Shown in pieces: positions 11,113 to 30,428 of a DNA stretch of 37,668 nucleotides (positions are counted from its first letter, which is position 1; each line of letters begins with the position of its first letter). The stretch is from contig JAQVBD010000012.1 in the NCBI GenBank assembly GCA_028690485.1, positions 1-37,668 on the forward strand, written 5' to 3'. Source of the DNA: Endomicrobiaceae bacterium (GTDB lineage Bacteria > Elusimicrobiota > Endomicrobiia > Endomicrobiales > Endomicrobiaceae). Under the pieces are notes generated by a model. It was not told the DNA's origin. It ran no database searches and saw only the letters and a program-made list of their open reading frames with translations. The position numbers and the translations under genes were made by a program.

Positions 11113-11141
11113 TTGACAAACATATTGATTTCATATATAAT
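11113..11141 (+). promoter_or_regulatory. Perfect-consensus promoter of the pilus operon
   Basis: TTGACA (11113-11118), a 17-base spacer, then TATAAT (11136-11141): both hexamers and the spacing are ideal. The pilB ATG lies 37 bases further on, behind GGAG (11169-11172). Confidence 0.85.
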
Positions 11142-11178
11142 TCGAGGGTATTATAATATTTATAAATTGGAGATCTAC

Positions 11179-14122: not shown

Positions 14123-14129
14123 ACTTTAT

Positions 14130-14537
14130 ATGATAAAAAAAATATTTAATAATCATGGCGTTTCTCTTATGGAGTGTATAATTGTTGTAATAATTATAGC
14201 AGTCTTGGTTTTATTATGGGGTTTTTATGGCGGAGATCATATAAGAATTGCCATAACAAATGAAGGTCATATGTTCATTGAAAAAATTATTTCGCAGGAA
14301 AAAATGTATAGAGCTAGAAAGTCTTCATATTTGCCTATAGTTTCTACTACGACATCATCAGTAGAATTAAATATAGATACTAATCAGAATAAATATTTTA
14401 AAACTTTTAATGTTACTGTTAGTAGTAATACTTTGTACGTCAGTGCTTATGGAGAAAATGAAGCATCAGGGATAACTGTAAGAGGTATTTACGATATAGG
14501 AGTAACAAGTGGGACAGTTTTTCAAGAATTTTTATAA
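14130..14537 (+). CDS. Minor pilin, type IV prepilin-like (GspH-like position)
   Basis: A 135-residue prepilin. 'NNHG|VSLMECIIVVIIIAVL' has the peptidase site after G10, Glu at mature position 5 and a hydrophobic helix. The ATG at 14130 is chosen because it gives a normal 10-residue leader and lies 7 bases after pilC; the frame upstream of it overlaps pilC and makes no leader. No good Shine-Dalgarno is visible, so translation is probably coupled. It is first of four consecutive pilin-like genes, the place GspH occupies in type II secretion operons. The globular part is not recognisable by eye. Confidence 0.85.
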   Translation: MIKKIFNNHGVSLMECIIVVIIIAVLVLLWGFYGGDHIRIAITNEGHMFIEKIISQEKMYRARKSSYLPIVSTTTSSVELNIDTNQNKYFKTFNVTVSSNTLYVSAYGENEASGITVRGIYDIGVTSGTVFQEFL

Positions 14538-14943
14538 AATAAATTTAGGATTAACATTAATTGAGGTGTTAGTCTCTGTTGTAATAACATCAATGGTTAT
14601 GGTTTATGGAATGTCTTTTTTCATGGCAGCATGGAGAATGGAAGTAGAAAGTTCTAATTACTCAAGAATTTTAGGAAATGTTGCAAAAATAATTGAAGAT
14701 AATAGAAGTGAATATTATTCTATTGTTCCGCCTTCAGGGACTGTAACTATATCAAGTGAGGCATTACCTTCTGGTAAAGTTGTAATGTATAGTTATACTT
14801 TTTCAAGAAATATTGTTACAAACAGTATGCAAGGAGTTGCTTTAGCTGAATGGCCTTGGACAAGTTCTGCAAGTGCTGCAGAAAAAGCTTCTTGGAGTAG
14901 GATTTCTATAAAAACACATTTTGCAGAAGAATGGAAAAAATGA
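14509..14943 (+). CDS. Minor pilin, type IV prepilin-like (GspI-like position), GTG start
   Basis: A 144-residue prepilin. 'KINLG|LTLIEVLVSVVI' shows the cleavage site after G13 and Glu at mature position 5. The GTG start at 14509 is supported by AGGAG at 14498-14502, six bases upstream, and by an in-frame stop just before it (14503). The gene overlaps the preceding pilin by 29 bases. After the hydrophobic helix comes a small mixed domain with no cysteines. It is likely one of the tip-priming minor pilins. Confidence 0.85.
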   Translation: MGQFFKNFYKINLGLTLIEVLVSVVITSMVMVYGMSFFMAAWRMEVESSNYSRILGNVAKIIEDNRSEYYSIVPPSGTVTISSEALPSGKVVMYSYTFSRNIVTNSMQGVALAEWPWTSSASAAEKASWSRISIKTHFAEEWKK

Positions 14944-15536
14944 TTACAGTTAAAAGTAAAAAAGGTTTTACATTGATAGAAGTAATGGTTTCAATGATAT
15001 TATCAGCTATTGTTATTTTTTTTATTTATACTATGATGACGGTATCATATACTTCATATTCAAAATTATTTGGTGTTTCCCAGCAAAGTAATGATACTAG
15101 ATTTTTTGAAACTATGATAAAAAAATCTATTGTAAATGCTGCTTATGTGAATATGTTGCCTTCTAAGTTTTCGTTTGGATATTATGATGATAACTTAGGT
15201 ATTTATAGATTGGATGAATATTCTTTTACTACAGGTGCTTTTACAAATAGTGCAACTTTATCTGTTAATCCACCTACAACTGTAGGTAGTATACCAAGTA
15301 CTAACAGAGTTCTAAAATTGACAGTTTATAATGCAGGAGCAAGCTATACCGGAAATACAGTTGTTAGAACAGAAATTATATTGCAAAATGTTAATGCTAT
15401 ATATTATCATGAAAATAAAACAGCTGTAATGGATAATATTAGTTTGGGCTTAATATATAATAAAGTATTAGCAGATGGTGAAGTAAATTACGAAATTAGG
15501 ACATTCAAATTTACATCTAGGGATGTTTTAATATGA
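14940..15536 (+). CDS. Minor pilin, type IV prepilin-like (GspJ-like position)
   Basis: A roughly 198-residue prepilin. 'KSKKG|FTLIEVMVSMILSAIVIFF' is a textbook class III signal with Phe at +1 and Glu at +5. The chosen ATG at 14940 overlaps the preceding stop as ATGA; an in-frame ATG at 14931, three codons earlier, is equally usable. Its larger globular domain and position third in the pilin series fit GspJ/PilW-like minor pilins. The downstream gene overlaps by 4 bases. Confidence 0.85.
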   Translation: MITVKSKKGFTLIEVMVSMILSAIVIFFIYTMMTVSYTSYSKLFGVSQQSNDTRFFETMIKKSIVNAAYVNMLPSKFSFGYYDDNLGIYRLDEYSFTTGAFTNSATLSVNPPTTVGSIPSTNRVLKLTVYNAGASYTGNTVVRTEIILQNVNAIYYHENKTAVMDNISLGLIYNKVLADGEVNYEIRTFKFTSRDVLI

Positions 15537-16063
15537 GCTTAAAAGAAAAAGGGTCAATATTACCGGTCACTATAGTTGCTATGCTTATTATGACAATTGT
15601 TGGTTTGATTTGTATACAAATGTTTATGTTACAGAATATGATGAATACAGTCGATCAGGCTAGAGTTAGGACTTTTTATGCTGCAGAGGGTGCTATGGAA
15701 ATGTTAAGAGGGTACATTAATCTTAATTATCCGGAAACGAATAATGCTTTTAGTTCTTTGGCAATGCCTTGGTCACCGATTGATATTTATATAAATAGTT
15801 CAGGTAATTATTATGATAGGACTATTCATCCGGGAATTTATGCTCGGGCAGTTTGTAATAGGTTAGCAAGTGCTAATGCTGTTCCGGGACTTCCTATTGT
15901 AACTGAAGAATTTGGTAAAACATATAATTATTATGCTATAACAGGTATATCTTCTGCAACTGTTAATTTTAAAGTAGTTGCATCTACTGTAGCATATTAT
16001 TTCTATACTGTTTATGATGGAACTAATAATATAAAGCATTTTAGAGGATGGAGGGAACTTTGA
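15533..16063 (+). CDS. PilX/GspK-like minor pilin lacking Glu5
   Basis: A 176-residue protein with the N-terminus 'KEKG|SILPVTIVAMLIMTIVG'. Prepilin-type cleavage follows G7, but mature position 5 is Val, not Glu. 'QARVRTFYAAEGAMEMLRGY' resembles the conserved stretch after the helix in PilX_N proteins ('AAE' motif). Loss of Glu5 is characteristic of GspK, the tip pseudopilin, and of PilX-like proteins. It is fourth in the H-I-J-K-like series and overlaps the preceding gene by ATGA. Confidence 0.82.
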   Translation: MSLKEKGSILPVTIVAMLIMTIVGLICIQMFMLQNMMNTVDQARVRTFYAAEGAMEMLRGYINLNYPETNNAFSSLAMPWSPIDIYINSSGNYYDRTIHPGIYARAVCNRLASANAVPGLPIVTEEFGKTYNYYAITGISSATVNFKVVASTVAYYFYTVYDGTNNIKHFRGWREL

Positions 16064-17067
16064 TTGGAATTGATTTAGGATCAAAATTTGTTAAAGTATG
16101 TAAGGTTATTAATGATGGTAAAAAATCTAGCCTTTCAATTTTATGTGCTATGACAATGTCATCTTCAGATACAGCTTTTCAAAAAATGGCTTTATTGTCA
16201 ATATTAAAAAAATTGAAAATTGATTCAGATGCAAGTTTTTTAGCAGTTGGAGGGCAAGGTTTAATTCACAGAGATTTGTTGGTATCTAAGAAAATAGATA
16301 AAAAAAATTTAAAAAATGTTATTAAATTAGAAGTGGAGCAATCAATAACAGAAGATTTGGATAAAATGTTTTCTTCTTTTACAATTACTAAGGATATTTC
16401 TGAAGAAGAGTGCAATGTTTTATTTTCAGCAGTACCTAGAGATCAAATCTTTTCAAAAGTTCATGTAGTCAAAAATGTACAGAATTTAAAACTTGTTGGT
16501 ATTACTATGGAATCCTTAGCATTAGTTAATGCATTTAACACATTTGGTCCAAGCTATAAGAATACTGAAAGTATAATTTTAGTAAATATTGGGCATACTA
16601 AAACAAATATTACTGTTTTAAATAATAAAGAATTAATTTTTATGAGAGATGTTGAGTTTGGTGGTAAAGATGTAACAAGTGATATATCGAATTTATATAC
16701 AATACCGGAAAAACTTGCAGAGGAAATAAAGAGAAGAACGGATTTATGGAATGATATAGGTTTTAATGTAAAGAATGTACTGAAAAAAAGTACAGCAACA
16801 TTATTAGAAGCAATATTTAGGACAATAGAACATTGCATAACTAGACAATATATTGTTGCTGTTGACAGAGTTGTTATTACTGGCGGTGGAGCTATGTTAG
16901 AAGGGATTGATGTTTTTATTGGTGATACATTAGGAATTGCGACTAATAAATGGAATCCTTTAATTGATAACAATGTTACTGGATATGTAAACCAAAACTA
17001 CGGCTATTTTATGCCGATATCTTTAGGTTTGGCTATTGAAAAGGAGTTTGATAATGTACAGAATTAA
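16060..17067 (+). CDS. pilM: Type IV pilus inner-membrane accessory protein PilM (actin-like)
   Basis: A roughly 335-residue actin/FtsA-fold protein that binds PilN's cytoplasmic tail. 'LIGIDLGSKFVKVCKV' is the phosphate-1 loop, 'SIILVNIGHTKTNITVL' the phosphate-2 loop, and 'VVITGGGAMLEGIDVFI' the adenosine motif. A TTG at 16060 is preferred: GGAGGG at 16050-16055 is correctly placed for it and it overlaps the previous stop as TTGA. The alternative ATG at 16048 gives four more residues but has AGAGG directly abutting it. No membrane segment is seen, which fits a cytoplasmic protein. Confidence 0.9.
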   Translation: MIGIDLGSKFVKVCKVINDGKKSSLSILCAMTMSSSDTAFQKMALLSILKKLKIDSDASFLAVGGQGLIHRDLLVSKKIDKKNLKNVIKLEVEQSITEDLDKMFSSFTITKDISEEECNVLFSAVPRDQIFSKVHVVKNVQNLKLVGITMESLALVNAFNTFGPSYKNTESIILVNIGHTKTNITVLNNKELIFMRDVEFGGKDVTSDISNLYTIPEKLAEEIKRRTDLWNDIGFNVKNVLKKSTATLLEAIFRTIEHCITRQYIVAVDRVVITGGGAMLEGIDVFIGDTLGIATNKWNPLIDNNVTGYVNQNYGYFMPISLGLAIEKEFDNVQN

Positions 17068-17632
17068 CTATATAACTGATATAGTAAGAAAAAATAAAAC
17101 TGAAATATATTTTATAAAATTTTGTAAAATATTAAATCTATTTGTTCAGCTTACAATTATATTTTTATTAGTGAGTTCTGTATATTTATACAATAAAATA
17201 AATGAATATAATGAAAATATAAAACAGATAAAACAATCGATAGAAGAAAAAAGACAATCTAATAATATGGATGCCGTTGAAAAAGAATGGAATGGTTATT
17301 ATTTTAAATTGACAGCAATGAAAGAACAGTTGAGTAAAAATACGAATTACGGTTTGATTTTTAAGGAATTAGGGAATTTCTTGCCAAGTGATGATTTTAT
17401 TACAACAGCTGCTGCAAATGATACAAATATGTTGATTAATTTAAATTTAGGTAAAAATAAATTAAAAGAGCTGAAAAATGTTTATGACTATGAAAATGTA
17501 TTAAAAATGGCTTTTGACAGAAGTGTATATTTTGATAAAAATATAAAGATAGAGTTGTTATATGAAGATAAAATTGATAATAAGCTTATTAATTTGTTAA
17601 AAGTTAATATGCCAATATATTCGAGGAAGTGA
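17054..17632 (+). CDS. pilN: PilN-like type IV pilus inner-membrane protein
   Basis: A 192-residue bitopic protein. A short cytoplasmic N-terminus ('YRINYITDIVRKNK') contains an INYI motif close to the INLLP-type motif that docks PilN onto PilM. One transmembrane helix (about 30-52) and a coiled-coil-prone periplasmic region ('NKINEYNENIKQIKQSIEEK') follow. Sequence identity to PilN is weak by eye; the call rests on topology, motif and position between pilM and a pilO-like gene. The ATG at 17054 is set by AAGGAG at 17041-17046. Confidence 0.78.
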   Translation: MYRINYITDIVRKNKTEIYFIKFCKILNLFVQLTIIFLLVSSVYLYNKINEYNENIKQIKQSIEEKRQSNNMDAVEKEWNGYYFKLTAMKEQLSKNTNYGLIFKELGNFLPSDDFITTAAANDTNMLINLNLGKNKLKELKNVYDYENVLKMAFDRSVYFDKNIKIELLYEDKIDNKLINLLKVNMPIYSRK

Positions 17633-17636
17633 TTAT

Positions 17637-18554
17637 ATGAATATTAATATGACAAATAGAAATTTTGCTTTTTTTGTAAATTTAATCGTTTTTATTGTTA
17701 TTATGTCTGGCATATATATATTTGTGTATTCAAAATATAATAGCATGTTAAACGAAAAAAAGATTATTTATGACAGATTTAATGCTATTAATATGCAATT
17801 AAATGATTTTTCAAACATACAGAGAAGTATAGATGAACAAAAAGACAAGATAACTGAAATAATATCTGAATATGAAGATTTTTTTATTCCTAATGATGAA
17901 ATAGTGAATAGATATAAGGTTCAGGTAATAAAATTACTTAAACAATATGAAATTCAATCTACTGATGATAATATCAAACAAATACAAAAAGAAGGAAATA
18001 ATATAGTTTTGACATTAAATTTAAAAGCTACATATGATCAAGTTTATAAATTTTTGTTTGATATAGAAAAATTTTCAACAGTTTCAAATGTTACAATGTC
18101 ATATACAGGTAATGTCACAATTGATTGCAGCCCTGTTCTTTATTCGTCATCTATTAATGACTATTTTAGTGGAAGAGTTGAACAGTCTATTGATGAAATT
18201 TCAGCAAAAGGGTATTTTAAAGAAATCTCTGATAAAATATTTTCGTCAATGGATGTCGGATATGTTCCTACTTGGAGAGATTTATTGCCTGTTCCTAGAA
18301 ATCCTTTCATTTCAGGTTTTGTTAAGAAAAAAGTTGTACAAAAATATGTTAGCCAACCTGTTATTTCTAGAGCTGTACCGGTTATTGTATTAGAAGGTAT
18401 CATGTATGAAACTAAAAATCCTATTGTTATTATAGAAGGACAGCTTTATCCTAAAGGGGCAATTTATAAAGGTGCTAAAATTATAAAGATAGAACAGAAT
18501 TCAATAACTGTTGATTTTTATGGAAAAAATTATACAATAAAAATGTTAAACTAG
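17637..18554 (+). CDS. pilO: PilO-like protein with a PilP/GspB-like C-terminal domain
   Basis: A 305-residue protein. Residues 12-32 are a single membrane anchor. A coiled coil (about 33-80, 'NEKKIIYDRFNAINMQLNDF...') and a ferredoxin-like PilO region (about 90-150, 'VIKLLKQYEIQS', 'ATYDQVYKFLFDIEKF') follow. After a linker with 'DLLPVPRNPF', residues 245-305 form a short beta-rich domain, 'IVLEGIMYETKNPIVIIEG', '...GAKIIKIEQNSITVDFYG', with the pattern of PilP, GspB or GspC homology domains that contact the secretin. Normal PilO is about 200 residues, so this looks like a natural PilO-PilP type fusion. AGGAAG (17624-17629) precedes the ATG. Confidence 0.75.
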   Translation: MNINMTNRNFAFFVNLIVFIVIMSGIYIFVYSKYNSMLNEKKIIYDRFNAINMQLNDFSNIQRSIDEQKDKITEIISEYEDFFIPNDEIVNRYKVQVIKLLKQYEIQSTDDNIKQIQKEGNNIVLTLNLKATYDQVYKFLFDIEKFSTVSNVTMSYTGNVTIDCSPVLYSSSINDYFSGRVEQSIDEISAKGYFKEISDKIFSSMDVGYVPTWRDLLPVPRNPFISGFVKKKVVQKYVSQPVISRAVPVIVLEGIMYETKNPIVIIEGQLYPKGAIYKGAKIIKIEQNSITVDFYGKNYTIKMLN

Positions 18555-18563
18555 GGAGAAAAG

Positions 18564-19832
18564 ATGAAGAAAAAAATTCTTGTGTTTTTAGTCGCTATTT
18601 TGGTTTCATGTTCTGGTTTTGTCTATGCTGTGAATGAAAAAACTGAAAAAGAAGTAACTTCTATTGGATTAATATCTATTGATTTCCAGGGAACAACATT
18701 GTACACAGTATTAAATGTTCTTAGTATGAAAACCGGTATGAGACTGATTACAGATACAACATTATATGATAAAAAAATAATGTTATCTTTAAAAGATGTT
18801 ACAGCTGAAGAAGCGTTGAATGCTTTGTTAGATACATATGATTTATATTATGTTAAACAAGGTGATGCTAATATTTATGTTATAAAAAGTAAAGCAGACG
18901 GTAGCCATATTACAGTTTCAAGAGTAATATTTTGCAATTATGCAAAAGCATCTGATTTAGAAAAAATATTAGAAACGAGATTATCCAAAGGCGGTAAAAT
19001 AGTTTCTGACATTAGAACAAATTCTGTAATTATTACAGATCTTGCAGACAGTATAGATAAAATGGAAAGTCTTATTAGGTCTTTAGATGTTCCAACTCAA
19101 CAAGTTATGCTTGAAGCGAAAATTGTTGATGTCAACTTGTCATCAGGGCTTTCTTTAGGAACAAAATGGAATGAAACTTATAGAAATGGATTAGTTAATC
19201 CTGTTTCAGGTTTAAACAATTTTACATATAGCACGCCTATGGGAACAGCTGCCGGGTTAGGATTAAATAAGTCTTTTGGTAAAATAGGAGTTTCTATTTT
19301 AGAAGGAGATTGGAATATTAATGCAATAATAGAGGCTGGAATAGAAGATAAAAATGCTAAAGTTCTTTCAAATCCTAAATTATTAGTTTTAAACAATCAA
19401 GAAGCTACAATTGATATAGTAGAAGAAGTACCTTATTTAGAGAGTAAGACAACATCTGCTTCAACAGGTGATACTTCTGGGACAACAGCTTTTAAACAAG
19501 TTGGTATTAAGTTGAAAGTTAAACCTCAAATTAATAGAGATGGTTCTATCGTTTTATCAGTTTCTCCTGAGCAGAGTTACAGAACAGGTGAGACTATTGG
19601 TACAGATAATACACCTGTAATTAATACAAGTAAAACAACAACGACATTAATGTTAAGAAGCGGAGAAACAGCAGCTATTGGTGGATTAATAAGAGAATCT
19701 GAAGATAGTACAATAAATAAAGTTCCATTATTAGGTGATATTCCAATTATAGGTTATTTATTTAAAGGGTACACAAAAAATAAAACCAGATATGAACTCA
19801 CGATCTTTATAACAGCAAAAATTGTAAATTAA
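18564..19832 (+). CDS. pilQ: Secretin (PilQ/GspD family)
   Basis: A 422-residue outer-membrane channel subunit. A signal peptide (1-22, ending 'GFVYA') also contains 'LVSC', which could be a lipobox. An N0/STN-like domain ('IDFQGTTLYTVLNVLSMKTG', about 38-107) and one N1 domain (about 115-175, 'NSVIITDLADSIDKMESLIRSLD') precede the secretin core from about 185 ('MLEAKIVDVN', 'VLSNPKLLVLNNQEA', 'VGIKLKVKPQI', 'SGETAAIGGLI', 'PLLGDIPIIGYLF'). It is shorter than typical PilQ (600-700 residues): no AMIN domains and only one N1. GGGAG precedes the ATG. Confidence 0.93.
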   Translation: MKKKILVFLVAILVSCSGFVYAVNEKTEKEVTSIGLISIDFQGTTLYTVLNVLSMKTGMRLITDTTLYDKKIMLSLKDVTAEEALNALLDTYDLYYVKQGDANIYVIKSKADGSHITVSRVIFCNYAKASDLEKILETRLSKGGKIVSDIRTNSVIITDLADSIDKMESLIRSLDVPTQQVMLEAKIVDVNLSSGLSLGTKWNETYRNGLVNPVSGLNNFTYSTPMGTAAGLGLNKSFGKIGVSILEGDWNINAIIEAGIEDKNAKVLSNPKLLVLNNQEATIDIVEEVPYLESKTTSASTGDTSGTTAFKQVGIKLKVKPQINRDGSIVLSVSPEQSYRTGETIGTDNTPVINTSKTTTTLMLRSGETAAIGGLIRESEDSTINKVPLLGDIPIIGYLFKGYTKNKTRYELTIFITAKIVN

Positions 19833-19843
19833 GGATTTAAAAC

Positions 19844-20413
19844 ATGGAAAATGAAAATGTTACGAAAGTATTAATTATAGAAGATGAGCCAAGTGAGAGA
19901 TTGAGTTTAAAAGCATCTTTGGAAGCTGTTGGAATGCAGGTAGAAGCTGTTGAGACGGGGTTAGAAGCAGAATCTTTAGTTAAAGATATGTTTTTTGATG
20001 TTTTAATAGTTGATTATAGATTACCTGATATAGATGGTTTAAATTTAATAAAAAAATTAAATTTGATTTCATCTGATTTAATACCAATAGTTGTAACTGC
20101 ATACAGCTCTGTTGAAATTGCTGTTGAAGCTATGAGGATGGGTGCATATGACTATATGGTAAAACCATTAAACATTGATTCTTTATTAAAAACTATTGAA
20201 ACAATGCTGTTTGATAGAGAATCTCTTATTAATGGAAGAAAAAAATTAACACAAATGGTTGGATCTAATATGAATTATGTATACAAAGATGAAGATGTGA
20301 CGGTTATATCTGCATTTGATTCTAATGTTTTATTAGATAAAACAGAAATTTCTGTAATGGATAAAATAAAAGTTATCTTTAATACAGTAAAAAATTATTA
20401 TTGGGGTTCATAA
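19844..20413 (+). CDS. Stand-alone response regulator receiver protein
   Basis: A 189-residue CheY-like receiver. Acidic pocket 'IIEDE' (about 11-15), phospho-acceptor D57 in 'VLIVDYRLPD', T85 in 'VVTAYSS' and K107 in 'YMVKPLN'. The receiver resembles NtrC-type domains but no AAA+ or DNA-binding domain follows. The last ~65 residues ('LTQMVGSNMNYVYKDED...') are unrecognised. No histidine kinase gene is in the window. Its place between the secretin gene and the secreted repeat protein suggests control of pilus assembly or activity by phosphorylation. AAGGA precedes the ATG. Confidence 0.88.
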   Translation: MENENVTKVLIIEDEPSERLSLKASLEAVGMQVEAVETGLEAESLVKDMFFDVLIVDYRLPDIDGLNLIKKLNLISSDLIPIVVTAYSSVEIAVEAMRMGAYDYMVKPLNIDSLLKTIETMLFDRESLINGRKKLTQMVGSNMNYVYKDEDVTVISAFDSNVLLDKTEISVMDKIKVIFNTVKNYYWGS

Positions 20414-20414
20414 A

Positions 20415-21212
20415 ATGATAATAAAGAAAATGTTGCTTTTAGGTTTAGTAGTTGTTTTATTTTCATCTCTTTCTTTTGCCGGGATAAAAAGTTATGGAAA
20501 TGAAGAATTAGTGAATAGTGAACAATCTAATAGTCCGGAATTCAAAAAGGTTAATATAAAGAGAGAGCTGGCCAAAGCGAAAAATGCTTATTTCCAAGGT
20601 GATTTGGAAAAAGCAGAGCAATATATTGATATCATTTTAAATGTATCAAGTGATAATTTAAAAGCAACGGAATTAAAAAATAAAATTTTAGTTTTAAGGG
20701 AAAAAATATCTTTTTTTAAGAAAGCTGTTGTTAGTGACTATGCAATAGAATTAAAAAGGGCTGTTAAAGATGGCAATTGTTATGAAGGTTTTTTGTTTAT
20801 AAAAAAGATTAATTCTCTAATACCAGAGGAAGATGTAACATCGTATTATCTTAGATTATCTGATGAGAAAGATTTAATCGCATCAACTATTGAAAATGAA
20901 AATGATAAAAAGGAATTTTTAAATTCAATTGAATATTTCAAAGACGGTAAATTTTTAAAGGCTAGCAGATTAATTTCAAAACTTTCTAAAAAATATCCTA
21001 AATTTGAGGATTTTGTTGGTATGAGTAGATGTTATATTTTACAAGAAACAAGTACAAAACGAATTTCAATGTATTATAAAGAAGCTCTGAAAAATATAAA
21101 ATATAACAGATATGGTAAAGCAAAAGATTGTATTGAACTTGGTTATATTTTACAACCTGAAAATATAAAATTGATAACGTTGATGGAACAAATTAACATG
21201 GAATTAATGTAG
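20415..21212 (+). CDS. Secreted TPR-like helical-repeat protein
   Basis: A 265-residue protein with a signal peptide (about 1-23, 'MLLLGLVVVLFSSLSFA') and a periplasmic or surface helical body. Repeated patterns such as 'AKNAYFQGDLEKAEQYIDIIL', 'SIEYFKDGKFLKASRLISKL' and 'ALKNIKYNRYGKAKDCIELG' match tetratricopeptide-type helix pairs. It starts one base after the receiver gene's stop. In pilus systems TPR proteins such as PilF/PilW act as pilotins for the secretin; this one has no lipobox Cys after the signal, so such a role is only a possibility. Confidence 0.7.
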   Translation: MIIKKMLLLGLVVVLFSSLSFAGIKSYGNEELVNSEQSNSPEFKKVNIKRELAKAKNAYFQGDLEKAEQYIDIILNVSSDNLKATELKNKILVLREKISFFKKAVVSDYAIELKRAVKDGNCYEGFLFIKKINSLIPEEDVTSYYLRLSDEKDLIASTIENENDKKEFLNSIEYFKDGKFLKASRLISKLSKKYPKFEDFVGMSRCYILQETSTKRISMYYKEALKNIKYNRYGKAKDCIELGYILQPENIKLITLMEQINMELM

Positions 21213-21219
21213 TTTTTAA

Positions 21220-22794
21220 ATGACTCTTAAAAATAGATTTTTAATAGCTGCTTTTGTTGTTTTTGCCGTATCATTTATTTCGAGAATCAATGTCTTAGAT
21301 AATTTGTTTGTTTTGGATGATTTTACTTTAATAATTGGTAACACATTCGTTCACAGCTTAAATAATATTTTAGAAGTTCTCAATCCTAAAAATATATTTT
21401 ATGTGTTACCAATACGTTGTGGAGCTAGACCTCTTGCTGTTGCCTCTTTAATTATTGATTATTCTGCTTTTGGTATTAATCCATTTGGTTATCATGTAGT
21501 TAATTTATTAATTCATTCTGTTAATTCTGTTCTTGTTTTTGTATTTGTGTATTTCTTTAATTATAAAAAAACTATAATTTACCCATTGATTGCTTCTTTG
21601 TTTTTTTCATTACATCCAATTCAAAGTGAAGTCATTAATGTTATCAGTTTTAGAGCGGATTTATTGTTAGTATTTTTTTATCTGTTAGCTTTAATTTTTG
21701 TTAATTTACTGCAACAATATTATAAAAATAATAAATTATTATATGTTTTAATTTTCATAACAATTTGTTGTGCTTTTTTTACAAAAGAAAATGCAATAAT
21801 ATTACCAATAGTGTTGCTGTTGTTTTCTGCTTTTTTATATAAAGATAAACAATTAAATAAATTTGCGATTGTTTCTTTTATCGTTATTATTTTCTTTTTT
21901 TTATTTTTTTGGATAACAAGATTTCCTGTTCCTTTATTTTATACGATATATCCTAATTTAGATGGGAATATCACACCTCTTGTTAGTCTTTTTACATATT
22001 TTAATACAATAATAGCATCTCTATTTTATAATATTATCCATATTGCTTATCCTGTCAACCTTTCGGTAGATTATATCGTTAAATCTTCAGTTTATGTTAA
22101 TATTGGAATATTTGTTTTTATTATCTCAATAATCTATTTATTTTTTTATAAAATAAAAGATAAAAATATTAAAATTTTCATCTTATTAACAATACTTACA
22201 TATTTACCGGTTAGTAATATTATTCCATTAGTTAATACAGTTGCAGACAGGTATATGTATATGCCTATGGTTGCTATATCAATATTATTTGGACTTGTAA
22301 TATTTAAAATTATGGGTACAATAAACAAAATAATAATATATGTTTTTATAATATCTTTATTTGCATTATTTACTATTATTTCCTATCAAAGAGGAGAAGA
22401 CTTTCGTAATTCCTATACATTGTATTCTGATGCAATTATAAAAAATCCAAATAATATTAGAACAGTATATAATATGGGGGTTGCTTATTTTTCCAATGGG
22501 GAATATGATAAAGCAATAATAGAGTTCGTTAAAATTAGTAAAATAAATCCTGTATATATGAGAGATAAAATTTGGCTTCTTACAGCAATGTCATATGATG
22601 AACAAAATAACAAAAATTTAGCACAACAGTATTACTATAAAGCATTTTTATTAAATCCGTTAGATGATGAAATAAGAGATAATTTTATTTATTCATTTAC
22701 TTCTTTTGAAGAGGCAAAAAAATATATTTTAACTAATACGGTCAGATTAAATGATAATATTTATACCGCATTACAAAAACGGTCAAAAATATAA
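21220..22794 (+). CDS. TMTC-like GT-C membrane glycosyltransferase with C-terminal TPRs
   Basis: A 524-residue polytopic protein with about ten membrane helices, then TPRs near 410-490 ('NIRTVYNMGVAYFSNGEYDKAIIEF', 'AMSYDEQNNKNLAQQYYYKAF'). Features match TMTC/O-mannosyltransferase-like GT-C enzymes: 'FVLDDF' with D33-D34 in the first outer loop, 'RPLAVASLIIDYSAFGINPF', 'YHVVNLLIHSVN', 'SLHPIQSEVINVISFRADLL', 'FTKENAIILP' and 'ADRYMYMP'. Such enzymes take polyprenyl-phosphate sugars and glycosylate exported proteins. Seven bases after the helical-repeat gene and last in the pilus operon, it could modify pilins; that is inference. Confidence 0.78.
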   Translation: MTLKNRFLIAAFVVFAVSFISRINVLDNLFVLDDFTLIIGNTFVHSLNNILEVLNPKNIFYVLPIRCGARPLAVASLIIDYSAFGINPFGYHVVNLLIHSVNSVLVFVFVYFFNYKKTIIYPLIASLFFSLHPIQSEVINVISFRADLLLVFFYLLALIFVNLLQQYYKNNKLLYVLIFITICCAFFTKENAIILPIVLLLFSAFLYKDKQLNKFAIVSFIVIIFFFLFFWITRFPVPLFYTIYPNLDGNITPLVSLFTYFNTIIASLFYNIIHIAYPVNLSVDYIVKSSVYVNIGIFVFIISIIYLFFYKIKDKNIKIFILLTILTYLPVSNIIPLVNTVADRYMYMPMVAISILFGLVIFKIMGTINKIIIYVFIISLFALFTIISYQRGEDFRNSYTLYSDAIIKNPNNIRTVYNMGVAYFSNGEYDKAIIEFVKISKINPVYMRDKIWLLTAMSYDEQNNKNLAQQYYYKAFLLNPLDDEIRDNFIYSFTSFEEAKKYILTNTVRLNDNIYTALQKRSKI

Positions 22795-22873
22795 TAATAT
22801 TAAAATATGAAGTAATAATAATAAGACAAATTTATTATCTCTACAATTCAGTATGTTTTATATCAATAAAATC

Positions 22874-22902
22874 TTGATAAAAATGCCAAAAACTTGTAAA
22901 AT
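22874..22902 (+). promoter_or_regulatory. Promoter of the nucleotidyltransferase-hisS-Tad gene string
   Basis: TTGATA (22874-22879), a 17-base spacer, then TAAAAT (22897-22902): each hexamer has one mismatch to consensus. The ATG is 50 bases downstream with GAGAGGTG as ribosome-binding site. Confidence 0.65.
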
Positions 22903-22952
22903 CTAATAATATAATTTTAAAAAAATAAAAATAAAAATTTGAGAGGTGCAAA

Positions 22953-25451
22953 ATGCAAGCTGTCATTATGGCAGGAGGTTTTGGCACGAGGCTCAGACCT
23001 ATTACCAGCAGTATTCCTAAACCTATGGCTCCAGTGGCTAACAAACCAATGTTAAGTCACATTGTTGAATTACTTAAAAAATATTCTTTTAAAGATTTAA
23101 CAATGATGTTATATTATCAACCGGAAATAATTACAAATTATTTTGGGAATGGTTCAAGTTTGGGTGTAAATATAAAATATTTGAGACCGGAATCCGATTT
23201 AGGTACAGCCGGCAGTGTCGGTTTTGCAAAAGATGATATAAATGGAACATTTCTTGTCATATCAGGAGATGTTTTAACTGATTTTGACATATCAAAAGCT
23301 ATTGAATTCCATAAACAAAAAAAAGCAATTGCTACAATGGTTTTAACCAGAGTATCAAATCCTTTACAATTTGGTGTTGTTATCACTGATAAAGACGGCA
23401 AAATAGAAAGATTTTTAGAAAAACCATCTTGGGGCGAAGTTTTTTCCGATACAATAAATACAGGTATATATATATTAGAGCCGGAAGTTTTTGATTATAT
23501 ACCGGAGAATAAAGATGTGGATTTTTCAAAAGATTTATATCCTAGGCTTCTTAAAGAAAATAAAGGTTTGTATGGTTATGTAGCAGAAGGATATTGGAAA
23601 GATATTGGCAATCATGATGAATATAGGTTTGCACATTATGATATTCTTGACGGCAAAGTTAAAATTGATGTGCCTGGTGTAAAAAAAGAAATAGATGGAA
23701 AAACTGTAATTATTGGTGAGAACACAGTAATTGAAGATGGTGTCATTTTTGACAGTAATGTTATTGTTGGAAATAACACTATAATCAAAAAAGGTGCAAG
23801 AATTGGTAAGTCAGTAATTGGATCCGATGTTACAATTGGAGAGAGTTCATTAATTTTAGGTTCAGTATTGTGGAATGGTGTATCTGTAGGAAGTGAAGCA
23901 AGCTTAAAAGAAGTAGTTATAGGTGCATCGACAAAGTTAGGAGAAAGATCTTCCGTTCAGGTTGGGACAATCATCGCAGACGAATGCAATATAGGCGCAG
24001 ATGCAACCATAAGAGCAAACTTAAGAATTTGGCCACATAAAATTGTTGAAAAAGGTGCTATTCTTTCTTCCAGTTTAGTTTGGGGTGAAAGATGGAATAA
24101 AGCATTATTTAATGCTTATGGTACTATTACAGGACTTGGTAATATAGAAATAACACCTGAATTCGCTGCAAAAATAGGTTCTGCTTATGGAGCATATGTT
24201 GGCAGCGGTGCATATGTTGTTATATCAAGAGATGATCATAGAACGACAAGAATGATAAAAAGAGGATTGATATCAGGATTGTTATCTGCCGGTGTTAATG
24301 TCGGAGATATGTTGAGTTCATCTATTCCTGTTGCAAGATACGAAATTGGTAATGACGGCGAAATAGGTGGAATTCATATAAGACAATCTCCTTATGATGC
24401 AAGGCTTATAGATATTAAATTTTTTGATAAATTTGGTGGCGATATTTCTATAAACCAAGAAAAATCTATTGAACAATTATTTTTTAGAGAAGATTTTAAA
24501 AGAGCAAATATGGATGAAGTTGGAGAAATTACAGTTCCTCCTAGAGCATTAGAATATTATAAAACCGGTTATTTAGATATAATCAAGAAAAAACAGACAA
24601 TAAATAAAATAAAGATAGTTATAGATTATGCGCACTCTTCTGCTTCAATGGTGTTTCCTGCAATATTAGGGGAATTAGGCGTAGATGTAGTTGCATTAAA
24701 TGCATATATAGATGCAAAAAAAATAACAAAAACAAGAGAAGAATTTGTAGAATCATTAAATCAATTATCAGATATTGTTACAACTTTAAAAGCCAGTGCA
24801 GGTTTCCTTATTGATAATGGAGCAGAAAAGTTATTTTTAGTTGATGAGAAAGGCAAAATAATGGATGATGAAACAGCTATGCTTGTTATGGCATATCTTG
24901 TAATGATAACCTACAAAACCGGAACTATTGCAGTTCCGGTAACCGTTTCATCTGTTATTGACGAACTTGCAGAAAAATTTGATTTTAAAATTAAAAGAAC
25001 CGGAACAAGTCCGCGAAATATTATGAATGCAACTAAAGATGAAAAAGTTATTTTTGTAGCAGATTGTCGTGGTGGATTTATTTTCCCTGAATTTCAACAA
25101 GCTTTTGATGCAATGTATTCTATTGGTAAATTGATAGAAATGCTAACACAAAATAATTTAACAATCAGTAGAATTAGAAGGGAAATTCCATCATTTGAGG
25201 TTTTTCATACGACTATTCCTTGTTCTTGGGATAAAAAAGGTCAGACAATGAGAAATGCTATTGAAAATACAAAAGATAAAAGGACAGAACTGATAGATGG
25301 TGTCAAAGTGTTTTTAAACAATGGGTGGGTCTTGTTGTTGCCGGATCCTGATGAGGCATATTTCCATATTTGGGCAGAAGCAAAAGATAAAACAACAGCA
25401 AAAGGTTTCATAGATATGTACACAGACAAAATTAGGCAGTGGCAGAAATAA
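22953..25451 (+). CDS. Mannose-1-phosphate guanylyltransferase-type nucleotidyltransferase fused to a degenerate phosphomannomutase domain
   Basis: An 832-residue protein. Residues 1-235 are a sugar-1-phosphate nucleotidyltransferase ('AVIMAGGFGTRLRPIT', K23 in 'PKPM', 'LGTAGSVGFA', 'ISGDVLTDFD', 'RFLEKPSW'). Residues 250-370 are a left-handed beta helix of hexapeptides ('VIGENTVIEDGVIF', 'SVIGSDVTIG'). The rest has the phosphohexomutase fold but lacks its catalytic motifs: TASHNP is replaced by 'HIRQSPYD' (475-482) and DGDADR by 'DNGAEK' (621-626). The same fusion occurs in cyanobacteria and several other phyla. It probably makes GDP-mannose (or another NDP-sugar) for surface glycans. The next gene encodes an intact mutase. 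Confidence 0.9.
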   Translation: MQAVIMAGGFGTRLRPITSSIPKPMAPVANKPMLSHIVELLKKYSFKDLTMMLYYQPEIITNYFGNGSSLGVNIKYLRPESDLGTAGSVGFAKDDINGTFLVISGDVLTDFDISKAIEFHKQKKAIATMVLTRVSNPLQFGVVITDKDGKIERFLEKPSWGEVFSDTINTGIYILEPEVFDYIPENKDVDFSKDLYPRLLKENKGLYGYVAEGYWKDIGNHDEYRFAHYDILDGKVKIDVPGVKKEIDGKTVIIGENTVIEDGVIFDSNVIVGNNTIIKKGARIGKSVIGSDVTIGESSLILGSVLWNGVSVGSEASLKEVVIGASTKLGERSSVQVGTIIADECNIGADATIRANLRIWPHKIVEKGAILSSSLVWGERWNKALFNAYGTITGLGNIEITPEFAAKIGSAYGAYVGSGAYVVISRDDHRTTRMIKRGLISGLLSAGVNVGDMLSSSIPVARYEIGNDGEIGGIHIRQSPYDARLIDIKFFDKFGGDISINQEKSIEQLFFREDFKRANMDEVGEITVPPRALEYYKTGYLDIIKKKQTINKIKIVIDYAHSSASMVFPAILGELGVDVVALNAYIDAKKITKTREEFVESLNQLSDIVTTLKASAGFLIDNGAEKLFLVDEKGKIMDDETAMLVMAYLVMITYKTGTIAVPVTVSSVIDELAEKFDFKIKRTGTSPRNIMNATKDEKVIFVADCRGGFIFPEFQQAFDAMYSIGKLIEMLTQNNLTISRIRREIPSFEVFHTTIPCSWDKKGQTMRNAIENTKDKRTELIDGVKVFLNNGWVLLLPDPDEAYFHIWAEAKDKTTAKGFIDMYTDKIRQWQK

Positions 25452-25466
25452 TAGGAGAGAAATACA

Positions 25467-26897
25467 ATGATTAAGTTTGGAACTTCAGGTTGGAGAGGCA
25501 TTATAGCAGATGAATTTACTTTTGATAATGTGAAGATAGTTACACAAGCTATAGCAAATTATATACTTAATGATGCAAAAGATTATAAAAAAGGTTCTGC
25601 AGTTATTATTGGGTATGATACAAGATTTATGTCGGAAAAATTTGCAGTAGTTTCTGCAGAAGTTTTGGCAGGAAACAAAATAAAGGCTTTACTTTGTAAA
25701 AGAAATACTCCGACACCTGTAATAGCTTATGATATTATAAAAAACAAACTTGCCGGAGGTATTAATTTTACAGCAAGTCATAATCCGCCGGAATATAATG
25801 GAATTAAATTTTCTCCTTCATGGGGTGGTCCTGCTCTTCCGGAAACAACAGAAAAGATAGAAAAATATTGTGCTGCTATATCAATAAAAGATGTTAAAAT
25901 TTTATCAATTAATGAAGGATTAAAATCGAAGATTATTGAATATTATGATCCAAGACCGGCATATTTAAAAAGAATAAAAGAGTTAGTTAATTTTAAAGTA
26001 TTAAAAAAATCTTCTATTAAGGTTGCTGTCGATCTACTACACGGGACTGGTGATGATTATTTAGATACTTTGTTAGCTAGTGCAGGTATAAAATTAAAGG
26101 TTATGAATAAAAACAGAGATGTTTTATTTGACGGACATTCTCCGGAACCTAATGAAGATAATTTAAAAGAGTTAAAATCTATTATAAAAAAAGAATCTTA
26201 TAAAATTGGACTTTCTGTAGATGGTGATGCTGATAGGTTTGGAATAATAGATTCAGATGGAACATTTATAACTCCTAACCAAGTTATACCTATATTGTTA
26301 TATCATTTAAATAAAACAAGAGGTTGGAAAGGTATAGTAGCAAGAAGTGTTATGACAAGTCATATGCTTGATAAATTAGCAGCAAAACTTAATATTGAAG
26401 TTAAAGAAACGCCGGTAGGGTTTAAATATATCGGTGAACTTATGACAGAAAGACCAAATGATTTTATTATTGGCGGAGAAGAGTCAGGAGGCCTTACTAT
26501 TAGAGGGCATGTTCCTGAAAAAGATGGGATATTAGCCTGTTTGCTTATGGCAGAAGCAGTTGCAATGCATAAAAAATCTTTAGGTGCAATTTTAAAAGAT
26601 ATATATAAACTTACAGGAAATATTATAACTTCTAGAGAAAATTTCCGTTTACCGAAAGAAACAATGGAAAAATTTAAAGAGACTTTGAAAAAATCTACAC
26701 CATCTAAAATAGGTGGGATGAAAATAAAACAAGTTGTAACATTAGATGGTTACAAATTTATTATTGATGATTTTACTTGGATAGGATTTAGATTATCTGG
26801 GACAGAGCCTATTGTAAGGTTATATGTTGAAGCGGCATCTAATGATACAATAAAAAAATTAATTTCAGCTGGAGAAAAATTTGTCAACGGAAAATGA
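25467..26897 (+). CDS. Phosphoglucomutase/phosphomannomutase
   Basis: A 476-residue alpha-D-phosphohexomutase interconverting hexose-6-phosphate and hexose-1-phosphate. All four active-site loops are present: 'INFTASHNPPEYNG' with phosphoserine S104, metal-binding DGDADR (252-257), sugar-binding 'IIGGEESGGLTIRGH' near residue 338, and phosphate-binding 'FRLSGTEPIVRLY' near the C-terminus. It follows the nucleotidyltransferase fusion by 15 bases with a GGAGAG ribosome-binding site, so the pair can channel hexose-6-P to an NDP-sugar. Whether glucose or mannose is preferred cannot be read from sequence. Confidence 0.95.
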   Translation: MIKFGTSGWRGIIADEFTFDNVKIVTQAIANYILNDAKDYKKGSAVIIGYDTRFMSEKFAVVSAEVLAGNKIKALLCKRNTPTPVIAYDIIKNKLAGGINFTASHNPPEYNGIKFSPSWGGPALPETTEKIEKYCAAISIKDVKILSINEGLKSKIIEYYDPRPAYLKRIKELVNFKVLKKSSIKVAVDLLHGTGDDYLDTLLASAGIKLKVMNKNRDVLFDGHSPEPNEDNLKELKSIIKKESYKIGLSVDGDADRFGIIDSDGTFITPNQVIPILLYHLNKTRGWKGIVARSVMTSHMLDKLAAKLNIEVKETPVGFKYIGELMTERPNDFIIGGEESGGLTIRGHVPEKDGILACLLMAEAVAMHKKSLGAILKDIYKLTGNIITSRENFRLPKETMEKFKETLKKSTPSKIGGMKIKQVVTLDGYKFIIDDFTWIGFRLSGTEPIVRLYVEAASNDTIKKLISAGEKFVNGK

Positions 26898-27588: not shown

Positions 27589-28900
27589 AGCACCTAGAGG
27601 AACACATGATATTTTTGGTAAGTTAGCTTTAGGACTAGAAAAATTAGATTTAATTTCAAGACAAGTATTTAGAAAACATAATTTTAAAGAAGTTAGAACA
27701 CCTATTTTTGAAGATGTCTCTTTATTTACGAGGTCTATTGGTGAAGCAACAGATATTGTTGAAAAGGAAATGTATGTTTTTGAAGATAGAAAGGGAAGAA
27801 AATTAGCTTTAAGACCGGAAGGGACAGCATCTCTTGTTAGAGCATATATAGAACATAGATTTGATATGACAGAACCTATCGGTAAATTTTTTTATTCAGG
27901 TGAAATGTTCAGATATGAAAGACCACAAGCAGGAAGATACAGACAGTTTTTACAAATGGGTGCGGAATATTTAGCAAATCCAAGTCCAAATGCAGATGTA
28001 GAAATTATTTTGGTAGCAAAAGAAATATTATCAACTTTAAATATAAAAGATATTACAATCCATTTAAATTCATTAGGTTGTCCTAAGTGCAGAGCAGAGT
28101 TTAGACAAAAATTAGTTGATTATTTTGCATCTATTAGTGATTTGTGTGAAGATTGTAAAAGAAGATTAGAAAAAAATCCTTTAAGATTATTGGATTGTAA
28201 AATAGATTCAAATAAATTTCAAAACGTTCCTACAATGCAGGAATGTTTATGTGATGACTGTAATAATCATTTTCAACAGGTTCAAGCATTGTTGAAAAGA
28301 GTTGATTGTGATTATATAGTTGACCATAAACTTGTTAGAGGATTGGATTATTATACAAGAACTGTTTTTGAGGTTCGTTCATCGTCGGTTGGTTCTCAAG
28401 ATGCTTTATGTGCAGGCGGAAGATATGACAATTTAGTAAAGGAATTAGGCGGGCAACAGATTCCAAGTGTAGGTTTTGCTTTAGGGTGTGAAAGAGTTTT
28501 AATGGCATGTGAACAAAATGGTTTTTTTGATAGTCTTCAAACAGATGATGTTGTCTTTATTGCATTGGCAGATGAAGAATTATTTGTAGATGCTTTTACT
28601 TTTGCAAATGACTTAATATTAAACAATAATGATATAAGAAAAGATATTTGTTTATCTGAAAATATAATAATAGAAGGTCCTTTTTTAAATAAAAGTTTAA
28701 AATCACAATTTAAACTTGCTGATAAAATTGGTGCTAAAAAAACAATAATTTTCGGTAAGAATGAATTTGATAAAGGCAAAATTATTGTTAAAGATATGGT
28801 TACTCAAGAACAAAAAGAAGTTAAATTGCCGGATTATTGTTTTAATCGTCAAATTTGTAATACAGATTCTAATGAAGTATTTAAAAATGTTAAAAAATAG
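27575..28900 (+). CDS. hisS: Histidine-tRNA ligase
   Basis: A 441-residue class II aminoacyl-tRNA synthetase. 'APRGTHDIFG' opens the protein, 'LRPEGTASLVRAYIEH' and 'FRYERPQAGRYRQFLQMGAEYL' are motif 1/2 elements, 'LVRGLDYYTRTVFEV' is the histidine-specific HisA motif, and 'GGRYDNL' with 'PSVGFALGCERVLMA' supplies motif 3. A C-terminal anticodon-binding domain follows. Two CxxC pairs ('GCPKC', 'LCEDC') and 'CLCDDC' sit in the insertion domain. The ATG at 27575 is chosen for GGAG at 27564-27567; the longer frame from 27554 lies inside DUF502. It ends inside the TadE-like gene. Confidence 0.97.
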   Translation: MSIYKAPRGTHDIFGKLALGLEKLDLISRQVFRKHNFKEVRTPIFEDVSLFTRSIGEATDIVEKEMYVFEDRKGRKLALRPEGTASLVRAYIEHRFDMTEPIGKFFYSGEMFRYERPQAGRYRQFLQMGAEYLANPSPNADVEIILVAKEILSTLNIKDITIHLNSLGCPKCRAEFRQKLVDYFASISDLCEDCKRRLEKNPLRLLDCKIDSNKFQNVPTMQECLCDDCNNHFQQVQALLKRVDCDYIVDHKLVRGLDYYTRTVFEVRSSSVGSQDALCAGGRYDNLVKELGGQQIPSVGFALGCERVLMACEQNGFFDSLQTDDVVFIALADEELFVDAFTFANDLILNNNDIRKDICLSENIIIEGPFLNKSLKSQFKLADKIGAKKTIIFGKNEFDKGKIIVKDMVTQEQKEVKLPDYCFNRQICNTDSNEVFKNVKK

Positions 28901-29405
28901 AAAAGGCAATGCTTTTGTTGAAGCTCTTTTTATTTTGCCGATGATGGTTTTGATGTTTGTCTCGGTTATATGGTTTGCAAGAGTTCTTTTAACTTGGCAG
29001 CAATTAATTTCTGCCACTAGATATGGTACGGATATGATAGCTACCACAACATTAAATGCCTATGATATAAAAAAAGATATTGAGAATTATTTAACACATA
29101 GAATGATAGATGGAAGAAGATTAGATGCTGAAAAGATTAAAGAAATAAATGTTGATATTAATGATTATCCAAAAATTGATATTAATGTTAGAGATTTAAC
29201 TAAGATTTTTAATGATATAAACGGATTGATAAAAGGATTACTTATTCCAAATGCGGATGTTTCATCTGTAAAAATTACTTATTGTTATGATTTACCTAAC
29301 ATTATGCATTTTGTTGGTTTAAAAGAAATTAATATAACTGCAAAATCATCTGTTTTATCCGGTAGTGGATGTAAAAATAATATACATAATAGGTCTTCAA
29401 AATAA
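28887..29405 (+). CDS. TadE-like pseudopilin
   Basis: A 172-residue TadE-family protein. 'KNRKG|NAFVEALFILPMMVLMFVS' shows a prepilin-type site with Glu at mature position 5 and the family's 'VEA...LP' motif in the single helix. 'TWQQLISATRYGTDMIATTT' is the conserved post-helix segment. The ATG at 28887 is preferred (GAAG at 28874-28877, normal short leader); ATG 28872 is possible. It overlaps the hisS 3' end by 14 bases, so it is read through from the hisS transcript and opens the Tad pilus module. Confidence 0.82.
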   Translation: MLKNRKGNAFVEALFILPMMVLMFVSVIWFARVLLTWQQLISATRYGTDMIATTTLNAYDIKKDIENYLTHRMIDGRRLDAEKIKEINVDINDYPKIDINVRDLTKIFNDINGLIKGLLIPNADVSSVKITYCYDLPNIMHFVGLKEINITAKSSVLSGSGCKNNIHNRSSK

Positions 29406-29425
29406 AAAAATGGAGGGAAGTTAAC

Positions 29426-29590
29426 ATGTTAAGAAGCAATAAAGGACAAGGAATGGTAGAATATATTTTAATCGTAGTATTAATAGTTATTGTTGCATTA
29501 GTAGGTGTTAAATTGTTTGGTAAAAATGTAAATGAAATTTTTACATCTTCTGCTGATAAAATATCTCAGGAAGCAAGTGCAAATAGATAA
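29426..29590 (+). CDS. flp: Flp/Fap-type pilin (major Tad pilin)
   Basis: A 54-residue small gene: MLRSNKGQGMVEYILIVVLI..., ending in ASANR. It matches the Flp signature exactly, with processing after G7, then four residues and E-Y (QGMVEY) and a hydrophobic helix, leaving a mature pilin of 47 residues. A strong GGAGG at 29412-29416 precedes the ATG. Flp is the only pilin of this class in the window and would form the Tad fibre; prepilin peptidase (TadV/CpaA) is not in the window. Confidence 0.9.
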   Translation: MLRSNKGQGMVEYILIVVLIVIVALVGVKLFGKNVNEIFTSSADKISQEASANR

Positions 29591-29591
29591 T

Positions 29592-30428
29592 ATGAAAAAA
29601 ACTTTTATACTATCTGGAATTTTGGCATTGTTATCAACAATTTTCGTTGTTCTTTATTTATATGATATTGAACAAAAAAATAAAGCAATGTCTGAACCTG
29701 TGAAAATTGTTGTTGCAGATGTAAAAATAGAACAGGGAAAAATAATTACATCTTCAATGCTTAAAGAAAAATTTGTACCTAAACAATATGTTCAGCCAAA
29801 GTACATATCAAGTATAAAAGATTTTTATGTTGACAAAAATCCTTCATTTATGTCAATAGTGGCTTTTGAAGAGGGTGAACAAATCACATCAACTAAAGTT
29901 TTACCAATTACATCTGATGCAGGTATATCTAATACTATACCTGATAATAAAAGAGCTGTAACATTAATTTTTGATAGAGATGAGATTGCAGGTATAGTTG
30001 CTCCCGGCAGCAGAATAGATTTAATATCAATTATTGAATATGAAAATAAAGATAAAACCCTTATAGAATCATCACTTGTAATAGCTCAGAATTTATTAGT
30101 TTTAGCTGTAGGTAATAATGTTATTGGCGGTATAAACGATATCAAACAAGAAAATATAACTGTAAATTTACCTGTTACTATGGCAGTATCAATTATAGAA
30201 GCTCAGCAAATAATGCTTGCTCAGGAAAAAGGTATTATAAAAATAGCATTAAGACCATCAGGTGATTTAACAGTTAATCAAATACAGCCAATAAAAATAA
30301 ATGATATTTTTAAAGATGCATCAAAAACTGTATTAAAACAATCAAATAGCGATATGCAAACTTTAAAAGAAATTCAAAAATCTCAAAAAGAAGCTATTGA
30401 TATAATAAACAGGTATTCTTCAAAATGA
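29592..30428 (+). CDS. cpaB: Tad pilus assembly protein CpaB/RcpC
   Basis: A 278-residue CpaB/RcpC protein, a periplasmic Tad component thought to work with the secretin. An N-terminal signal/anchor helix (about 4-22, 'FILSGILALLSTIFVVLYLY') is followed by an SAF domain ('IVVADVKIEQGKIITSSMLKEKFVP', 'FEEGEQITSTKVLP') and the C-terminal RcpC region ('RAVTLIFDRDEIAGIVAPGSRIDLIS', 'NLPVTMAVSIIEAQQIMLAQEKGIIKIALRPSGD', quoted here in pieces of the visible text). The ATG at 29592 sits one base after the flp stop. Confidence 0.9.
   Translation: MKKTFILSGILALLSTIFVVLYLYDIEQKNKAMSEPVKIVVADVKIEQGKIITSSMLKEKFVPKQYVQPKYISSIKDFYVDKNPSFMSIVAFEEGEQITSTKVLPITSDAGISNTIPDNKRAVTLIFDRDEIAGIVAPGSRIDLISIIEYENKDKTLIESSLVIAQNLLVLAVGNNVIGGINDIKQENITVNLPVTMAVSIIEAQQIMLAQEKGIIKIALRPSGDLTVNQIQPIKINDIFKDASKTVLKQSNSDMQTLKEIQKSQKEAIDIINRYSSK

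Follow-up and report, generated by a model that had tools for sequence, protein, structure and literature searches.

The window, by which we mean the whole analysed stretch of 37,668 nucleotides, is contig C76 of G000, the 1.63 Mb, 96.5% complete genome of an uncultured Endomicrobiaceae bacterium (Elusimicrobiota). It carries a pil operon whose last gene, an open reading frame with an ATG start that was given in the same form in an earlier note on this DNA, encodes a 524-residue protein, hereafter P0001 (Table 1). Up to this gene, neighbouring operon genes overlap or are separated by gaps of 1–11 nt, and the TPR-like gene ends 7 nt before it. A scan of positions 20300–23200 found no terminator, and returned 33 promoter sites against 23.8 (sd 4.5) expected, which is uninformative in AT-rich DNA. 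The receiver-domain gene upstream of the TPR-like gene stands alone here, while its counterpart lies in a longer frame in genomes G010 and G019 (304–330 aa) and at L076 (825 aa). We also noted a second, Tad-like apparatus at 28761–34037, between HisS and HrcA-GrpE-DnaK and also present in G001, with RcpC/CpaB and a CpaF-type ATPase assigned by Pfam and TadE-, TadB- and TadC-like genes assigned by eye; by contrast, HrcA directly follows the pil TPR gene in G010 and G019.

Table 1. Features of the pil operon, of P0001 and of the genes downstream.
Feature	Position	Strand	Basis or remark
PilB/GspE-type ATPase with MshEN domain	11113-12870	+	
PilC/GspF	12875-14122	+	
Three pilin-like ORFs	14064-14537, 14509-14943, 14931-15536	+	N-methyl matches (one just below cut-off); candidate acceptors
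PilX-like protein	15533-16063	+	Below cut-off; candidate acceptor
PilM	16048-17067	+	
PilN-like	17036-17632	+	Named by position
PilO/P-like	17637-18554	+	Named by position; weak T2SSB match
PilQ-type secretin	18564-19832	+	
Response-regulator receiver domain	19844-20413	+	No output domain found; kept between PilQ and TPR
Exported TPR-like protein	20415-21212	+	Ends 7 nt before the GT-C gene
GT-C glycosyltransferase P0001 with C-terminal TPRs, 524 aa	21220-22794	+	Motifs, alignment, model
Membrane-embedded GT-C part, about residues 1-396	21220-22407	+	Predicted model, hand-made layout
C-terminal TPR domain, residues 397-524, periplasmic in the hand-made layout	22408-22791	+	Pfam, model
Motif residues of P0001	DD 33-34, RP 70-71, RAD 145-147, KE 189-190, DY 284-285, DRYMY 343-347		
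NTP_transferase-hexapeptide-PGM/PMM fusion	22953-25451	+	Pfam
Second PGM/PMM	25467-26897	+	Pfam

In Pfam, P0001 matched TPRs alone: TPR_1, TPR_8, TPR_2 and TPR_17 exceeded their cut-offs, with the best stretches within residues 401–444, in agreement with the C-terminal TPRs that had been read from the sequence; no NCBIfam model reached its cut-off. Database matches came from Endomicrobiaceae, Endomicrobiales, Elusimicrobiales, Elusimicrobia and Candidatus Proruminimicrobium, plus one distant deltaproteobacterial protein, and 15 of 294 genomes of the phylum matched at E 1e-40. The signatures on which the earlier note had relied are all present (the DD pair, R70-P71-L72 with D80-Y81, H132-P133 with E137, and R145-A-D147-L-L). 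In an alignment of P0001 with ten homologues at 28–67% identity (A1, 11 sequences), residues D33, D34, A69-R70-P71, D80, H132, P133, E137, R145, D147, K189, R344 and Y347 were identical in all eleven, and E190 and D284 were nearly invariant. Two marks of the GT-C fold, an acidic motif in the first outer loop (D33-D34) and an Arg ahead of the tenth helix (R344), are among the residues shared by all eleven. PMT_2 matched two of the 11 members of A1.

The AlphaFold model of P0001, built on A1, has a mean pLDDT of 79 and a pTM of 0.81; its weak regions (residues 34–38, 233–242, 290–292 and 330–343) include or adjoin active-site positions. A Foldseek search with this model returned nothing below E 1e-3, the top GT-C row being 5f15 at 3.6e-3. 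VIA-align, a second comparison run on the Foldseek candidates, gave Z scores of 22.4 for OST-A STT3 (6s7o), 22.0 for Pmt4 (9i5l), 21.3 for Pmt1-Pmt2 (6p25) and 20.0 for ArnT (5f15), over 322–333 residues at 3.8–4.7 Å. STT3, Pmt4, Pmt1-Pmt2, PglB, AglB and ArnT all fell at Z 19.7–22.4 (one AglB entry at 17.5) and ALG12 at 19.2, followed at 14.2–16.7 by AftA/AftD/AftB, ALG3/ALG9, DPY19, GPI mannosyltransferase I and a GPI-transamidase chain. The first TPR proteins appeared at Z 13.5, below 41 rows that, judged by title, are all GT-C-fold proteins. By this computation, the modelled P0001 has a GT-C glycosyltransferase core; a predicted fold lacking that core, which had been named as grounds for abandoning the assignment, was not what we found. 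A layout assigned by hand from the model and hydropathy has 11 membrane helices, with the hydrophobic stretch 257–276 counted as a loop helix by analogy. In this layout the DD, RxD, KE, D and DRxxY residues lie on one side, the periplasmic one, and the TPRs are also outside.

The resemblance to TMTC O-mannosyltransferases that had been proposed for P0001 stood in part. In animals, TMTCs glycosylate adhesion proteins. They have 11 membrane helices and seven motifs, M1–M7 (PMC7801869), and we compared P0001 with the motif positions published in Table 4 of that paper rather than with TMTC sequences. The order of M1–M7 along loops EL1–EL5 and TM9 is kept, with M2, M4, M5, M6 and M7 matching only partly. 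M1 (D33-D34) and M3 (R145-A-D147) are intact. M4 retains K189-E190 and lacks the T/Q and Thr; M5 reads D284-Y285 where TMTCs have DW; M6 is reduced to a single proline, P330, one proline of PxxP being missing; and M7 reads D343-R344-x-x-Y347 where TMTCs have ERxxY. In M2, SHKSYRP is replaced by IRCGARP, so that two of seven positions match, the final Arg-Pro. The charged residues that TMTC models place at catalytic and phosphate-binding positions are kept in P0001, while the part that touches mannose in those models is altered. DUF1736 (PF08409), the domain of the TMTC TM7-TM8 loop, gave no match in P0001 at a maximum E of 10, where filters drop most matches above 0.1. Across the 41 genomes, 7 of 33 weak DUF1736 matches lay inside same-strand GT-C homologues (three of them members of A1), none over cut-off, at a threshold at which 5 of 14 control genomes also match. 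Membership of the TMTCs by way of DUF1736 was hence not supported, the domain being undetected in P0001. P0001 is TMTC-like in its working as far as residues tell, and not signature-positive.

We then consider where the gene occurs. A PilM search at E 1e-15 gave matches in 24 of the 41 genomes, and 17 of these, the window's own included, fell below E 1e-30, which we took to mark a close pil operon; operon ends were inspected in these 17, and the seven with a distant PilM (E 3e-21 to 9e-16) were left out. A GT-C gene is last in the operon in eight genomes (G000, G001, G007, G017, G009, G026, G027 and G029, from families f1, f3, f4 and f6), that of G009 being a 136-aa fragment at a contig end. 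A ninth positive from the genome collection, L076, has the order PilM, PilQ, response regulator, TPR and GT-C. The position at the end of a pilus operon, as first read from this one sequence, is therefore conserved. Three operon ends are cut by contig ends: those of G004 and G015 are out of view, and in G024 the contig runs no further than the response regulator while a 48%-identical GT-C fragment begins another contig. The gene is absent from the operon end in the remaining six, in which relatives of the upstream TPR-like protein persist. Here, the TPR gene is followed by HrcA (G010 and G019), by another gene (G002), or by a PPDK-like gene (G013, G020 and G021), gene labels PPDK, IDH, MoxR and VWA having been assigned by eye. 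Since the GT-C gene precedes a PPDK-like gene in G027, and does so after a 90-aa ORF in G029, the same junction occurs with and without the gene. Among the six, G002 has no pilin between PilC and PilM, G020 has no PilQ in its ORF list, and G013 and G021 are only partially in view. The Ser/Thr content of the operon pilins tended to be higher with the gene than without it (four versus two related genomes), and an uncertain fifth genome, G024, was lower, which goes partly against this trend. None of 32 pattern stretches from viral contigs encoded a relative. As a side observation, a MoxR-like ATPase comes next after the GT-C gene at L042, L043 (G007) and L040 (G017), and then a series of genes labelled VWA/Bat by eye.

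A midpoint-rooted tree was made from 46 of 56 profile matches, after 10 fragments, duplicates or TPR-only rows had been dropped by hand. All pilus-linked proteins fell within one group of 13 rows (support 100/100), inside which the four proteins of family f1 (100/100) stand apart from three of other families (82/85), and L076 groups weakly (88/50) with rows that are not pilus-linked. For the remaining five rows no neighbouring pil gene was found: the second copy of G026 and G158 show no pil match in about 9 kb on each side, and G030, the second copy of G029 and G156 have another gene just upstream, with contig ends 0.5–1.5 kb away. Because of these relatives outside pil operons, descent does not tie this type of enzyme to the pilus alone. 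In our reading, the tree fits vertical inheritance with losses. Residue Cys67 was considered as a pilus-linked signature and rejected: CGARP occurs in all seven labelled rows and in 0 of 38 other rows, but the pilus-linked L076 has NGARP, which makes 7 of 8. Sister GT-C genes for which no adjacent pil gene was found lie at L046:16646-18502, L047:8562-10496, L048:1042-2904, L082:478-2202 and L114:9259-11154; several adjoin proteins that look exported or repeat-rich by eye, and perhaps each such GT-C serves a co-encoded exported protein.

This distribution bears on the alternative that P0001 adds sugar to exported proteins other than those of the pilus, or to the cell surface at large, and is no more than a passenger at the pil operon's end. 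The window genome encodes five further TMTC-like GT-Cs away from the operon (six in all), there are pil operons without the gene, and several members of the 13-row group outside pil operons adjoin exported-looking proteins by eye. Nevertheless, the place at the operon end is constant in four families of the order even though the downstream genes change, and we regard this alternative as rather improbable. Of the six TMTC-like GT-Cs, only P0001 shows an acidic M5 in the alignment. Two of the others form a tandem gene pair at L054:12576-15949, both lacking the acidic M5.

A second alternative, close to what the earlier note had proposed, is a dedicated O-mannosylation pathway in which P0001 depends on GDP-mannose made by the two downstream genes. 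Among the NCBIfam models listed for the two downstream proteins (25 of 52 and 7 of 7), all sugar-specific ones were below cut-off. The best among those listed for the fusion protein was mannose-1-phosphate guanylyltransferase, at 287.7 of the 440 bits required, which is in the direction of mannose. The two genes adjoin the GT-C gene in only two of the eight positives with a visible downstream side (G000 and G001, of one genus), and in G027 about 8 kb separate the GT-C gene from a fusion gene farther downstream. Furthermore, 158 nt separate the GT-C gene from the fusion gene, against gaps of 1–11 nt within the operon. No type I phosphomannose isomerase (PMI) and no bifunctional PGI/PMI was found in the window genome, in searches that matched 7 of 14 and 3 of 14 control genomes, respectively, and the only type II PMI match, at 20.6 bits, was under cut-off. 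A mannose-type PTS is reported for Endomicrobiaceae (PMC11257099), hence mannose-6-phosphate could be imported. Also against mannose is the change of the mannose-contacting H-K-S-Y of TMTCs to R-C-G-A. Mannose is thus possible and not favoured by the sequence, and we consider the alternative as a whole unlikely. We also noted by eye that the fusion protein seems to read VDEKGK in its C-terminal, PGM/PMM-like half, against VDGDADR in the neighbouring PGM/PMM; this mutase half may therefore be inactive.

Because the sugar donors of GT-C-fold enzymes are lipid-linked, the downstream genes could supply precursors at most. The pair (22953–26897), adjacent in this genus only, is probably not part of the system. 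A candidate for the donor synthase lies elsewhere in the genome. One of its 14 GT2 matches, at G000:C14, was compared with solved structures, and its closest relative was a Dol-P-Man synthase (5mlz, E 2e-21), a likeness that counts for mannose as the sugar. DPM1-like relatives of this GT2 were found in 35 of 41 genomes. Tight co-occurrence with the GT-Cs was rejected across the 41 genomes: DPM1-like genes are present where no full-length GT-C was matched (e.g. G003, G006 and G018), and G038 and G040 have GT-Cs and no DPM1-like match at E 1e-20, so any donor coupling is loose. The DPM1-like matches G033:C1:51280-51954, G036:C26:14915-15592 and G039:C18:17791-18459 lie inside open frames of 932–942 aa and hence seem to be fused to another domain.

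It is very improbable that P0001 instead modifies a lipid or polysaccharide, as ArnT does lipid A. ArnT is among its structural neighbours (Z 20.0) and enzymes of the GT-C fold act on a variety of acceptors (PMC7801869), but the C-terminal TPRs and the location in a pil operon point to a protein as acceptor, and LptD is reported absent in all Endomicrobiaceae (PMC11257099). That P0001 is a catalytically dead GT-C whose TPRs serve as a scaffold when the pilus is assembled is scarcely credible: nothing direct speaks for it, beyond inactive GT-C relatives such as PIG-U being known (PMC7801869), D33, D34, K189, E190, D284 and R344 are retained, and the gene is missing both from G010 and G019, whose pil sets are complete over the contig stretch in view, and from G002, G013, G020 and G021, with a less complete stretch or gene set, so that pilus assembly seems not to need the GT-C.

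TMTC1–4 (CAZy family GT105) share with P0001 the GT-C core, DD in EL1, RxD in EL2, KE in EL3, Asp in EL4, (D/E)RxxY in EL5 and C-terminal TPRs, the last presumably fewer in P0001 than in the human proteins. Unlike TMTC1–4, P0001 is bacterial, is encoded in a pil operon and departs from them in DUF1736 and in M2 and M4–M7, as described above. Pmt/POMT and bacterial Pmt have the same fold (Z 21–22) and differ in their Pfam PMT or MIR matches, which are not listed for P0001. The oligosaccharyltransferases TfpO/PilO/PglL carry out pilin-associated glycosylation, as we propose for P0001; they are Wzy_C ligases, of a different family, and no Wzy_C match was found in P0001 with Pfam. To our knowledge, TfpW has no TPRs. 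This enzyme is the GT-C arabinosyltransferase of the group IV pilins of Pseudomonas aeruginosa, where it glycosylates its associated pilin (PMC11841053). Like P0001, as judged by their published description and not by sequence comparison, TfpW is a GT-C enzyme encoded with one pilin type and absent from others; it differs in its link to the gene of the major pilin and in adding D-arabinofuranose (PMC11841053). A glycosyltransferase gene conserved within a pilus cluster, after the manner of TfpW and TfpO, is what we observed in 8 of 17 genomes and at L076.

The GT-C fold, the TMTC-like motif order, the charged active-site positions and the optional last-gene placement all emerged from the computation. 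With moderate confidence, we favor the reading that P0001 is a predicted inner-membrane GT-C of the TMTC kind that transfers a sugar from polyprenyl phosphate to Ser/Thr of co-encoded pilins or other type IV pilus proteins, its periplasmic TPRs holding the acceptor. A cytosolic GT2, which may be the DPM1-like protein of this genome, would load the sugar onto polyprenyl phosphate, and the charged lipid would flip to the periplasmic face. There, by analogy with TMTC models, the DD pair would provide the catalytic or acceptor acid, with K189, E190, D284 and R344 near the metal and phosphate. P0001, which is presumably active, would pass one sugar to Ser/Thr residues of inner-membrane pilins that have yet to be assembled, and the TPRs may help to hold them. 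The acceptor would be a pilin or another pilus protein, but operon neighbors need not be substrates. A more specific form of this proposal is held tentatively, at somewhat less than an even chance: a pilus-dedicated O-glycosyltransferase of the TMTC type, passed down vertically within the pil operons of Endomicrobia with repeated losses, whose altered pocket (C-G-A-R-P) points to a sugar other than mannose. It would be a bacterial relative of the animal TMTCs whose acceptor is marked out by its genetic context.

Collectively, the conserved pilus linkage extends the earlier reading of a glycosylation pathway dedicated to this apparatus, with pilins or surface proteins as the presumed acceptors, whereas its GDP-mannose module, adjacent in one genus only, with sub-cut-off sugar-specific scores and no confident PMI, is rejected as a conserved part of it. 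On our best reading, the gene is accessory and not essential to the pilus, and P0001 would act as TfpW does, but as a TMTC-type enzyme. In P. aeruginosa, two pilin-associated glycosyltransferases, TfpO and TfpW, help to evade pilus phages (PMC11841053), and the optional distribution of the gene fits such a decoration, for example against pilus phages, rather than a part in assembly. In the open-licence PMC literature, a search of titles and abstract openings found no description of a pil operon that encodes a TMTC-like enzyme, nor of a TMTC-like bacterial enzyme tied to a defined substrate. If our proposal is true, P0001 would be such an enzyme, and at 524 aa it would offer a short model of how TMTC TPRs select proteins.
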